Assembly (NCBI RefSeq): GCF_004365705.1
Contig: NZ_SOBN01000001.1
Coordinates: forward strand, 4,884,001 to 4,948,000
DNA: 64,000 nt
Direction of reading: 5' to 3'
Source: Streptomyces sp. 846.5
Lineage (GTDB): Bacteria > Actinomycetota > Actinomycetes > Streptomycetales > Streptomycetaceae
The notes below the pieces were generated by a model, which saw only the letters and a list, made by a program, of their open reading frames with translations, did no database searches and was not told the origin of the DNA. Below, piece after piece: positions 10,164 to 15,943 of this stretch. The stretch's first letter is position 1, and each line of letters opens with the position of its first letter. Position numbers and translations under genes: made by a program.

Positions 10164-10198
10164 CATGGCAGCCGGTCCCGATAGGGTCGGCTGCCATG
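10164..10198. promoter_or_regulatory. Perfect 10-bp inverted repeat covering the DinB start codon
   Basis: CATGGCAGCC (10164-10173) pairs exactly with GGCTGCCATG (10189-10198), and the loop can extend the stem through CCC/GGG. The second arm contains the ATG of the DinB gene. In RNA this would bury the start codon, unless transcription begins inside it. It also lies 11 bp after the stop of the large secreted protein, so it could simply be that gene's terminator. Confidence 0.6.
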
Positions 10199-10738
10199 AC
10201 GATCGACATCGACGAGCACGGACGCCCGGAGCCGCCGCCCGCGGCCGACGAGTTCGGCACGGTGATGGGCTTCCTGGAGTACCAGCGGGCGACCCTGGCG
10301 TGGAAGTGCGCCGGGCTGGACGCGGCGGGTCTGGGCACCACGACCGCCGCGTCCACGATGACCCTGGGCGGGATGCTCAAACACCTGGCCTATGTGGAGG
10401 ACCACTGGTTCTCCCGGTCGCTCCACGACCGCGAGCCGGGCGCGCCCTGGGACACGGTGGACTGGAAAGCCGACCCGGACTGGGACTGGCACTCGGCGGC
10501 GGAGGACACCCCGGAGCAGCTGCTCGCGCTCTGGCAGGCGGCCTGCGCCCGCTCCTGCGCCCAGCTTGCGGAGGCCCTGGCGCAGGGCGGCCTGGAGCAG
10601 CCGGCCCGACGCCCCTGGTCCGACGGCCGGGCGCCGAGCCTGCGCTGGATCCTGCTGCACATGATCGAGGAGTACGCGCGCCACAACGGCCACGCCGACC
10701 TGCTGCGCGAGGCGGTGGACGGCGCCACCGGGGAGTGA
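10196..10738 (+). CDS. DinB-family (DUF664-like) putative metal-dependent protein
   Basis: The 180-residue four-helix-bundle type protein has the family histidine in GGMLKHLAYVEDHW (His63) and the C-terminal pair in EEYARHNGHADLLRE, together a likely three-His metal site. In actinobacteria DinB-like proteins include mycothiol-dependent transferases and isomerases, so a thiol-transfer role is plausible but not shown. The ATG at 10196 lies in the right arm of a perfect inverted repeat and has no strong ribosome site. It converges with the response regulator gene downstream. Confidence 0.85.
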   Translation: MTIDIDEHGRPEPPPAADEFGTVMGFLEYQRATLAWKCAGLDAAGLGTTTAASTMTLGGMLKHLAYVEDHWFSRSLHDREPGAPWDTVDWKADPDWDWHSAAEDTPEQLLALWQAACARSCAQLAEALAQGGLEQPARRPWSDGRAPSLRWILLHMIEEYARHNGHADLLREAVDGATGE

Positions 10739-13453: not shown

Positions 13454-13520
13454 GATTGACAATGTCAACCATTCAGGTCTACGGTCGATCCATTGCTTGA
13501 ACACATGAACCATCTAGGTC
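13454..13520 (+). promoter_or_regulatory. Operator-like repeats upstream of the DJ-1/ALDH gene
   Basis: Two signals lie in the 128-bp gap. First, TTGACAATGTCAA (13454-13466) is a perfect inverted repeat and overlaps a canonical -35 hexamer TTGACA. Second, AACCATTCAGGTC (from 13465) recurs as AACCATCTAGGTC (from 13508), 11 of 13 bases matching, with starts 43 bp apart (about four helix turns). This pattern suits a MarR- or HxlR-type regulator gripping two sites. No regulator gene lies next to it. Confidence 0.5.
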
Positions 13521-13542
13521 CTCAAGGCTCAGGAGCACCACC

Positions 13543-15540
13543 ATGACCGCCGTCCTCTTCGTCGTCACCGGCGCCACCCACTGGACCCTGGCCGACGGCA
13601 CCCCGCACCCCACCGGGTTCTGGGCGGAGGAACTCGTCGAGCCGCACCGGATCTTCACCGAGGCGGGCTACCGGATCACCGTCGCCACCCCCGACGGGGT
13701 CCCCGCCCCGGTCGACCGGGGCAGTCTGGCGGCCGCGGTCAACGGCGGTCAGGAGCAGGCCGATCGTCTCAGCGCCTACCTCGACTCGATCCGCGACACG
13801 CTGGAGGCCCCGGCCAAGCTGGCCGAAATTGACCCGGACGCCTACGACCTGGTCTTCTACCCGGGCGGCCACGGTCCGATGGAGGACCTCGCGGTGGACC
13901 AGGCCTCCGGCCGGATCCTCACCCGCGCCCTGGACTCCGGCAGGCCGCTGGGCGTGGTCTGCCACGCACCGGCCGCGCTGCTCGCCGCTCGCCGTGAGGA
14001 CGGCAGCTGGCCGTTCGCCGGCTATCGGATGACCGCCTTCACCAATGCCGAGGAGACCGCGGTCGGCCTCGCGGCCAAGGCCAAGTGGCTGCTCCAGGAC
14101 CGGCTCGTCGAGCTCGGCGCCGACTTCGACGAGGCCGCGCCGTTCACTCCGCACACGGTGATCGACCGCAACCTCTACACCGGCCAGAACCCGGGTTCCT
14201 CCGCAGAGCTGGCCCGGACGCTGGTGGACGCCGTCTCGGTCGACCCGGCCACGGTGGTGGCCCGGGTGCGAGCCACCTTCGACAGCGGCCGGACGAAGCC
14301 GCTGGCGTGGCGGCTGGCCCAGCTGGGCGCCCTGCGCGCGCTGCTGGTCGAGCAGGCCGACGCGTTCCTCGCCGCGCTCAACGCCGACCTGGGCAAGAGT
14401 GCGACCGAGGCGCAGCGCAGCGAGGTCGGGTTCGTCGTGAACGAGATCGACCACACGGTGGCGCACCTGGAGGAGTGGCTGCGCCCGAAGCCGGCCGGCG
14501 TCCCCGCCGCCTTCATGCCGGCCGAGGCCCGCGTGGTCCGTGACCCGCTCGGCGTCGTGCTGATCATCGCCCCCTGGAACTACCCGCTGCAGCTGGCCCT
14601 CGCGCCGCTGGTCGGCGCGCTCGCGGCGGGCAACACGGCCGTGGTCAAGCCCAGCGAGATGACCCCGGCGACCTCCGCCGCGATGGCCCGGCTGATTCCG
14701 CGCTACCTCGACCGTGAGGTCGTGACCGTCGTCGAGGGCGCCGTGCCGGAGACCACCGCGCTGCTGGAGCAGCGCTTCGACCACATCTTCTACACCGGCA
14801 ACGGCGCGGTCGGACGGATCGTCATGACCGCCGCCGCCAGGCACCTCACCCCGGTCACCCTGGAACTGGGCGGCAAGAGCCCCGCCGTGGTCGAGCCGGG
14901 CGCCGACCTGGCGGTCACCGCGCAGCGGATCGCCCGCGGCCGGTTCCAGAACGCCGGCCAGACCTGCGTCGCCCCCGACTACGTGCTCGCCATCGGCGCC
15001 ACCGCCACCGCGCTGGAAGCCGAACTGGTCACCGCGGTACGGGCGCTGTACGGGGAGGACCCGGCGGCCAACCCCGAGTACGGACGGATCGTCAACGAGC
15101 GCCACCACGACCGGCTCACCGCGCTGCTGGGCGACGGACGGGTCGTCACCGGCGGCGCCCACGACCGGGCCGGCCGCTACCTGGCGCCGACCGTCCTGGC
15201 CGACGTCTCGCCCGAGGCTCCGGTGATGCAGGCGGAGATCTTCGGCCCGGTGCTGCCGATCGTGAGCGTGCCCGACCTCGACGCGGCGATCGCCTTCATC
15301 AACGAGCGGGACAAGCCGCTCGCCCTGTACGCCTTCACCGCATCGGAGCAGACCAAGCAGCGGCTGGCGGAGGAGACCTCCTCCGGCGGCCTGGTCTTCG
15401 GCCTCACCGTCGCGCACCTGGCCGTGCCCGAGCTGCCCTTCGGCGGCGTGGGCGAGAGCGGGATGGGGCGCTACCACGGCGAGTACTCCATCGACACCTT
15501 CAGCCACCTGAAGGCCGTCCTGGACAAGCCCCTCGACTGA
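13543..15540 (+). CDS. Fusion protein: DJ-1/PfpI-type domain + aldehyde dehydrogenase
   Basis: One uninterrupted 665-residue frame starts at ATG 13543 (CAGGAG upstream). Residues 1-225 are a DJ-1/Hsp31-type domain with the nucleophile elbow GVVCHAPAAL (Cys140) and an acidic residue in FWAEELVEPH; the family includes glyoxalase III-like enzymes acting on methylglyoxal, and chaperones. Residues 235-660 are a class 3-like aldehyde dehydrogenase: PWNYPLQ (Asn), ELGGKSP (Glu) and catalytic Cys475 in AGQTCVAPDY, with FGPVLPI and the C-terminal GMGRYHGEYS. Both active sites look intact. The two normally occur as separate proteins of roughly these sizes. Joint action on reactive aldehydes is inference. 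The upstream operator-like repeats suggest induction. Confidence 0.9.
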   Translation: MTAVLFVVTGATHWTLADGTPHPTGFWAEELVEPHRIFTEAGYRITVATPDGVPAPVDRGSLAAAVNGGQEQADRLSAYLDSIRDTLEAPAKLAEIDPDAYDLVFYPGGHGPMEDLAVDQASGRILTRALDSGRPLGVVCHAPAALLAARREDGSWPFAGYRMTAFTNAEETAVGLAAKAKWLLQDRLVELGADFDEAAPFTPHTVIDRNLYTGQNPGSSAELARTLVDAVSVDPATVVARVRATFDSGRTKPLAWRLAQLGALRALLVEQADAFLAALNADLGKSATEAQRSEVGFVVNEIDHTVAHLEEWLRPKPAGVPAAFMPAEARVVRDPLGVVLIIAPWNYPLQLALAPLVGALAAGNTAVVKPSEMTPATSAAMARLIPRYLDREVVTVVEGAVPETTALLEQRFDHIFYTGNGAVGRIVMTAAARHLTPVTLELGGKSPAVVEPGADLAVTAQRIARGRFQNAGQTCVAPDYVLAIGATATALEAELVTAVRALYGEDPAANPEYGRIVNERHHDRLTALLGDGRVVTGGAHDRAGRYLAPTVLADVSPEAPVMQAEIFGPVLPIVSVPDLDAAIAFINERDKPLALYAFTASEQTKQRLAEETSSGGLVFGLTVAHLAVPELPFGGVGESGMGRYHGEYSIDTFSHLKAVLDKPLD

Positions 15541-15655
15541 CGCTGCGTCACGCCGCAGACGTGAAGCGGAGTCCACGGCGTCCTTCCGTGGATTGCGGGT
15601 AGGCGCGCCCTGCACCGGGTTGACCGTCAATCCGGTACGGACGGTGGTGTTGAAG

Positions 15656-15943
15656 ATGACCAAGGCCAAGGCCAAGGAATCCCTCCAGACCGGCGCGAAG
15701 GCCGCGTCGGCCGCCGGCGGGACGGTCGAGAGCAAGAAGGCGACGAAGGTCGAGAAGGTGGCGAAGCCTGCGAAGGCGACCCCGGCGAAGGCGACCCCCG
15801 TGAAGGCCGCCAAGGCGAGGGTCACCGGTGCGAAGGCCGCATCCGCTGCTTCCAGGACGCTGCATGATCCCAAGGCGACCAAGCAGGAGAAGTCCGCAGC
15901 GGCCAGTGCCCTGTCCAAGGCCCCGGCGCACGCCAAGCCGTGA
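15656..15943 (+). CDS. Lys/Ala-rich histone H1-like small protein
   Basis: The 95-residue protein is almost entirely Lys, Ala, Thr and Ser, with recurring AKATPAKATP and two copies of GAKAASAA. It has no predicted fold or Cys and is strongly basic, like bacterial H1-like/AlgP-type DNA-compacting proteins. The ATG at 15656 is preceded only by a weak GAAG; an in-frame GTG nine to twelve bases upstream is possible. A strong terminator follows directly, supporting a short independent transcript. A DNA-binding role is inference from composition. Confidence 0.6.
   Translation: MTKAKAKESLQTGAKAASAAGGTVESKKATKVEKVAKPAKATPAKATPVKAAKARVTGAKAASAASRTLHDPKATKQEKSAAASALSKAPAHAKP

Follow-up and report, generated by a model that had tools for sequence, protein, structure and literature searches.

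A conserved fusion of an Hsp31-type DJ-1/PfpI domain to a predicted class 3 aldehyde dehydrogenase in Streptomycetaceae

A single gene of Streptomyces sp. 846.5 joins a DJ-1/PfpI domain of the Hsp31/glyoxalase III type to an aldehyde dehydrogenase (ALDH) of predicted class 3, and the same join recurs in 22 other distinct sequences from Streptacidiphilus, Kitasatospora, Streptomyces and further members of the family. The gene lies in a stretch of 64,000 nucleotides (the window; NZ_SOBN01000001.1, positions 4,884,001 to 4,948,000) whose relevant features are collected in Table 1. We consider it probable that its product is a genuine bifunctional carbonyl-detoxifying enzyme with two halves working in parallel, born from one fusion event and controlled by a MarR-type repressor. 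The activities, substrates, repressor binding and inducer in this reading are those that we infer, while the architecture, its conservation, the gene-pair relatives, the tree pattern, the promoter repeats and the linkage to MarR can be read from the sequences compared here. Both halves belong to known families, but they stand in a conserved and regulated domain architecture for which we found no description in the open-access literature (most subscription papers lie outside that corpus, and the slashed spelling of DJ-1/PfpI may be missed by such a search). In this literature, the impression of the sequence-only reading that the architecture had not been described therefore holds.

Table 1. Features of the fusion gene and its upstream region (positions in the window)
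Feature	Position	Strand	Evidence
Operator-like inverted repeat 1, TTGACAATGTCAACCAT, overlapping -35-like TTGACA	13456..13472	+	
-10-like TACGGT, 18 nt after TTGACA	13480..13485	+	consensus match only
Operator-like inverted repeat 2, TTGAACACATGAACCAT, 41 nt after repeat 1 and 46 nt before the start codon	13497..13513	+	
Ribosome-binding-site-like AGGAG before ATG	13531..13535	+	sequence, conserved block
Fusion gene, 665 aa: DJ-1/PfpI (Hsp31/glyoxalase III type) + predicted class 3 aldehyde dehydrogenase	13543..15540	+	ORF, Pfam, fused homologues
DJ-1 half (residues 1-229)	13543..14229	+	Pfam, alignments, fold match
Glu30 codon, DJ-1 half	13630-13632	+	
Cys140 codon, DJ-1 half	13960-13962	+	
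His141 codon, DJ-1 half	13963-13965	+	
Glu170 codon, DJ-1 half	14050-14052	+	
Junction, last DJ-1 helix into first ALDH helix	14230..14244	+	AlphaFold2 model, junction comparison
Predicted ALDH3 half (residues 231-665)	14233..15537	+	Pfam, sequence and fold matches
Asn346 codon, ALDH half	14578-14580	+	
Glu441 codon, ALDH half	14863-14865	+	
Cys475 codon, ALDH half	14965-14967	+	

The reading frame runs from its ATG through 665 codons without an internal stop, and Pfam places DJ-1_PfpI at residues 28-229 (E 4.9e-15) and Aldedh at residues 231-659 (E 4.2e-88) of the protein, both above the curated cut-offs. A full-chain AlphaFold2 model (58-row alignment, pLDDT 91.9, pTM 0.85) predicts that the halves are joined almost without a linker, with a DJ-1 helix at residues 217-231, an ALDH helix at 235-247 and about 3 unstructured residues between them. 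Whole-chain Foldseek found only ALDH folds among its best 50 matches, leaving this one model as the only basis for how the two domains are placed relative to each other. An internal translation start at the junction was considered and rejected because no ATG is conserved there, and the GTG at Val238 or Val239 is common but variable among the 23 fused sequences. The host genome (9.03 Mb in 5 contigs) encodes free paralogues of both halves elsewhere, with 63 and 61% identity for ALDH3 and 54 and 53% for DJ-1.

Of 14 genomes of the genus, a protein search found the full one-frame fusion in two: that of the window itself and another (G005) whose fused protein is 93% identical to the window's and itself identical to that of Streptacidiphilus jeojiense (NZ_JOEH01000011.1), which has the same junction. 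This identity points to Streptacidiphilus as the genus concerned. At the level of the family, 19 of 394 genomes carry the fusion in one frame, and a scan of named genomes, in which 80 of 333 relatives were kept and classed by frame analysis (12 fused, 3 with adjacent genes and 65 with the ALDH only), added 4 further named genomes beyond the family set, for a total of 23 distinct fused sequences. A class-wide scan of 394 genomes, some of them from the family, returned only the window's own fusion, at a cut-off of 1e-150 and with 3 candidates scored per genome, settings that diverged fusions elsewhere could escape. Across all 23 fused proteins, Glu30, Cys140, His141, Glu170, Glu171, Asn346, Glu441 and Cys475 are invariant, including the two catalytic cysteines that the sequence-only reading had located correctly, and the join has the same length in 20 of them and is longer in 3 (L045, L068 and L069). 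In one of the latter, from Streptomyces triculaminicus (L069, 4001-6115), the DJ-1 half also contains an insert of repeated HREDA, some 30 residues long and located past the Cys-His elbow. All 8 pairs compared have a dN/dS below 1 for both halves (DJ-1 0.17-0.75, where 0.66 and 0.75 are based on few silent changes; ALDH 0.20-0.62), with 0.17 for DJ-1 and 0.20 for ALDH between the window and S. jeojiense. The long uninterrupted frame, the completeness of both domains and the recurrence of this join in 22 further sequences argue that the fusion is not due to chance, and the natural one-frame fusion proposed from the sequence alone is thus real.

The view that the DJ-1 half is glyoxalase III-like is borne out by its closest solved relatives, which are 1u9c, SAV0551/HchA and Candida glyoxalase III. 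Profile matches extend over its whole length to 1u9c, 4p5p, the Candida enzyme (4lru) and HchA/SAV0551, and Foldseek with an AlphaFold2 model of this half alone (pLDDT 96.5) ranks Hsp-type structures first (TM by query 0.81-0.87), with values of 0.84-0.87 to 1u9c, SAV0551 and 4p5p against 0.62-0.65 to the PfpI and SAV1875 types. Glu81, Cys190, His191 and Asp221 of SAV0551 align to Glu30, Cys140, His141 and Glu170, respectively, and Glu30 is also the counterpart of Glu30 of yeast Hsp31. The nucleophile elbow Cys140-His141, Glu30 and, at the acidic cap, Glu170 and Glu171 remain invariant when unfused proteins are included (28 of 28 alignment rows). For SAV0551, the variants E81A, C190A and H191A are reported to be almost or entirely devoid of glyoxalase III activity and D221A to be only marginally active (PMC5691139), and yeast Hsp31 is described as having this Glu-Cys-His set too, with a Glu as third member of a protease-like triad (PMC4021431). 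The half therefore resembles Hsp31/HchA-type glyoxalases III such as SAV0551, yeast Hsp31 and the Candida enzyme in fold, Glu-Cys-His set, acidic cap residue and whole-length match, but these are free proteins, whereas the C-terminal DJ-1 helix of the window protein continues into the ALDH; in addition, the base His78 of SAV0551 aligns to Trp27 of the fusion.

By sequence and predicted fold, the C-terminal half is a class 3 ALDH. Human ALDH3A1 is its best sequence match (464 bits, compared with 178 bits for the thirteenth best chain, an SSADH), Foldseek ranks 1-13 are all ALDH3 or ALDH3-like with ALDH3A1 again best (TM to target 0.94), and about 430 residues align at 49-50% identity to ALDH3A1 and FALDH (TM to target 0.91-0.94) with the catalytic Cys, Glu and Asn in common. 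The NCBIfam equivalog for the benzaldehyde dehydrogenase MdlD scored 398.9 bits, below its curated cut-off of 550. Unlike the window protein, ALDH3A1, FALDH and S. aureus AldH lack an N-terminal DJ-1 domain. Other natural fusions combine an ALDH with a second enzyme on one chain (PutA, AdhE, ALDH1L1 and PaaZ), but there the paired enzymes catalyse successive steps of a single pathway, whereas the DJ-1 partner described here probably removes carbonyls in parallel.

The same two gene families are also found side by side without being fused. A DJ-1 gene followed by an ALDH3 gene on the same strand is present in 7 distinct family genomes (G006, G187, L071, G023=L131, G034=L138, G043 and G121), and the two are convergent neighbours in 3 more (G053, G056 and G104). 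Among 3631 matching plasmid records, 14 have a single place matching 80% or more of the fusion query; out of 5 places inspected, 3 are annotated as separate adjacent DJ-1 and ALDH genes (Streptomyces, Pantoea and Variovorax), one in Novosphingobium is without annotation and one in Caballeronia has only the DJ-1 gene annotated. Both kinds of gene are named under the matches on plasmids of Acinetobacter, Rahnella and Citrobacter. The two-gene neighbourhoods of Streptomyces sp. WAC00288 (plasmid p2), Variovorax boronicumulans (plasmid) and Pantoea sp. At-9b differ from the window in being unfused, with reversed gene order on the Pantoea plasmid, and the divergent regulator gene is of TetR type beside the WAC00288 pair and of LysR type beside the At-9b pair rather than MarR. 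Two loci have damaged reading frames: In the G187 pair (L049, 1498-3507), the first ALDH part is out of frame and the in-frame match begins at query residue 78, pointing to a frameshift or sequence error, and a genome of the window's genus with a completeness of 76% (G013; L019, 970-2421) has an ALDH3 homologue split over several frames, likely a pseudogene or the result of poor assembly.

In a DJ-1 tree of 48 rows, all 23 fused halves form one clade (support 97/80; 96% of bootstrap trees), which is joined in a 24-row fork by the long-branch free DJ-1 of L029, and a clade with 100/99 support holds the fused halves together with 6 of the 7 gene-pair DJ-1 proteins. The seventh (G006) falls on another branch, which suggests that this pair came about separately. 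In the two ALDH trees, the 23 fused halves are mixed with 22 standalone ALDHs in one 45-row clade (100/98 in one of them), and an AU test rejected the fused halves as one clade (p 8e-69). Around 32 ALDH-only loci, including some duplicate records, we detected no DJ-1 remnants (best tblastn E 0.086). The ALDH tree is compatible with gain as well as with loss of the DJ-1 half, but the single DJ-1 clade favours one origin of the join followed by loss or exchange. One fusion with repeated later loss of the DJ-1 half would be the simplest joint reading of both trees; alternatively, ALDH halves may have been exchanged, or the 5' part may have spread by recombination. Since 22 of the 45 clade members consist of the ALDH half alone, the DJ-1 half is evidently dispensable to many species.

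In this clade, the fused genes and many of the standalone ones have a promoter in common, with two inverted repeats, TTGA-N5-TCAACCAT, about 41 nt apart, a TTGACA -35 element under the first and TACCGT between them (16 aligned genes, chosen for having the repeats); the window has TACGGT where many relatives have TACCGT. From the second repeat through a GGAG-type ribosome site to the ATG, the distance is 46-48 nt in 7 of 8 aligned fused genes and in three standalone ones (L052, L054 and L050), and the start lies 54-56 nt downstream in the fused L048 and several standalone genes; the value of 46 for L077 reflects a GTG that was picked automatically. Allowing at most 1 mismatch, the repeat is found at 16 of 23 fused genes and absent from 7, at 0 of 13 free DJ-1 loci (after removal of 8 duplicate fused loci from a group of 21), at 21 of 85 ALDH-only loci (duplicate records included) and in 0 of 2780 mononucleotide-shuffled controls. 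It replaced a first operator guess, ACC-N5-GGT, that matched only 5 of the 23 fused genes. Because promoter, ribosome site and start are common to fused and some standalone ALDH genes, the DJ-1 part sits like a 5' cassette and, from these alignments, looks like a removable in-frame one.

The fusion also appears to be under a dedicated regulator. A divergent upstream MarR gene (Pfam MarR) is present at 18 of the 45 clade loci, and all 18 have the operator repeat in the promoter, compared with 12 of the 27 loci without an adjoining MarR gene, one of which (L089) has no upstream sequence (Fisher p 6e-5, a value that ignores kinship and uses a motif derived from the same loci). No MarR gene adjoins the fusion copy in the window. 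In the host genome, the stricter pattern TTGAN5TCAACNAT occurs exactly twice, once in the fusion promoter and once immediately ahead of a MarR gene (C1:5602919-5603326) whose product is 54% identical to the Kitasatospora MarR, and a control pattern did not occur. Across the genus, there are 24 such sites in 11 of 14 genomes: Among 20 that were fetched, 10 immediately precede a homologue of the C1:5602919 gene and 2 are fusion promoters, and two of the four others overlap each other some 110 nt upstream of a standalone ALDH3 gene (G001). The remaining eight fetched sites (L186, L187, L190, L191, L195, L201, L202 and L203) have neither a homologue of this MarR gene nor a fusion beside them. We regard this as good evidence that a MarR protein of the C1:5602919 family controls the fusion, through predicted binding and with a putative inducer. 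A regulator of HxlR type was rejected as a candidate: 9 matches in the genome exceed the cut-off, none of them near the window gene. Standalone ALDH3 genes of Nocardiopsis and some Streptomyces have a divergent TetR-family gene instead of MarR (TetR_C_11; L102, 3233-3859), grouped with genes of 29 loci.

In the mechanism that we propose, Cys140 of the DJ-1 half would attack an alpha-oxoaldehyde (for example, methylglyoxal or glyoxal), a proton would be moved by Glu30 and water would release the hydroxy acid without any cofactor. In the ALDH half, Cys475 would form a thiohemiacetal with an aldehyde, hydride would pass to NAD(P)+ and water assisted by Glu441 would release the acid. The halves would act in parallel on overlapping carbonyl stress with no intermediate handed over, and their fusion would fix a 1:1 dose of the two activities from one promoter. 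The join would have arisen once in Streptomycetaceae from a DJ-1 gene followed by an ALDH3 gene, with the DJ-1 part later lost or swapped several times as an in-frame 5' cassette, and a MarR-type repressor would sit on the paired TTGA-N5-TCAA sites over the promoter, probably to be released under carbonyl or electrophile stress. More tentatively, and with somewhat more doubt than belief, we can picture a complete one-chain carbonyl disposal system: a cofactor-free glyoxalase III and an NAD(P)-linked ALDH3 at a fixed 1:1 dose, served by a dedicated MarR sensor, in which the DJ-1 part is a plug-in cassette repeatedly lost or exchanged while promoter, ribosome site and start codon stayed the same.

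The strongest rival to a useful fusion is a neutral join, in which loss of a stop codon in a DJ-1-ALDH operon left two enzymes that still work independently and gain nothing from sharing a chain. The existence of gene-pair sister lineages, the variable junction length in 3 of 23 proteins and the fact that the DJ-1 half is repeatedly missing from genes with the shared promoter all fit such a history, but the join has been kept in 23 sequences from three named genera with intact active sites and dN/dS below 1 in both halves, and we rate a neutral join as unlikely, though a serious contender. It would concern only the worth of the join and is compatible with activity of both halves. Clearly less probable is that the DJ-1 half is not a detoxifier itself but serves the ALDH half as a chaperone or anti-glycation guard that protects it and its catalytic cysteine from reactive carbonyls. 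Hsp-type DJ-1 proteins are reported to have a triad-independent chaperone activity as well (PMC5691139), and the short linker in a confident model would suit this role; yet a pure chaperone would not need the full set of glyoxalase III residues that all 23 proteins retain, and many relatives have the ALDH3 without any DJ-1 half.

The sequence-only reading had suggested that an aldehyde might be channelled between the halves, so that the DJ-1 half would make or release a substrate that is passed to the ALDH active site. One chain with almost no linker would be well suited to this, but in the mechanism described for glyoxalase III, methylglyoxal is converted to D-lactate, a hydroxy acid without an aldehyde (PMC5691139), and near relatives use the ALDH half alone behind the same promoter, which means that the halves are separable; together with the longer junction in 3 of 23 proteins, these points make channelling very improbable. 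As for an assembly or annotation artefact, in which a stop and a start would have been missed and two ordinary genes read as one, its proposed hallmark does exist: Some close relatives have the genes apart (DJ-1 66-73% identical). These relatives, however, are a sister lineage of a fusion whose identical join recurs in 23 distinct sequences from independent assemblies and is shared by a 93%-identical sister species, so this explanation has practically no chance of being right.

The functions of the DJ-1 superfamily are disputed between chaperone, deglycase and glyoxalase, also for its bacterial members, and the fusion bears on this question: Its conservation, together with the recurring DJ-1/ALDH gene pairs of Actinomycetota and of Pseudomonadota plasmids, provides functional-linkage evidence that the Hsp31-type branch has a carbonyl role. 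Among close relatives, one and the same promoter precedes genes that have the DJ-1 half and genes that lack it, so that the benefit of the fusion can be tested directly; if the cassette reading is true, such relatives would be natural pairs for testing what a domain fusion is worth.

Three further observations concern the surroundings of these genes. Directly 3' of the fusion, a small Lys/Ala-rich ORF (15593-15943, + strand, 116 aa) without Pfam or NCBIfam match possibly encodes a histone H1-like protein. About 2.8 kb upstream of the fusion lies a gene for a mycothiol-S-transferase according to Pfam (MST, DinB-like; 10196-10738, + strand), and in other genomes several ALDH genes, fused or standalone, are immediately followed by genes for mycothiol enzymes of the MDMPI type (L061, 6137-6943; L077, 5351-6151).
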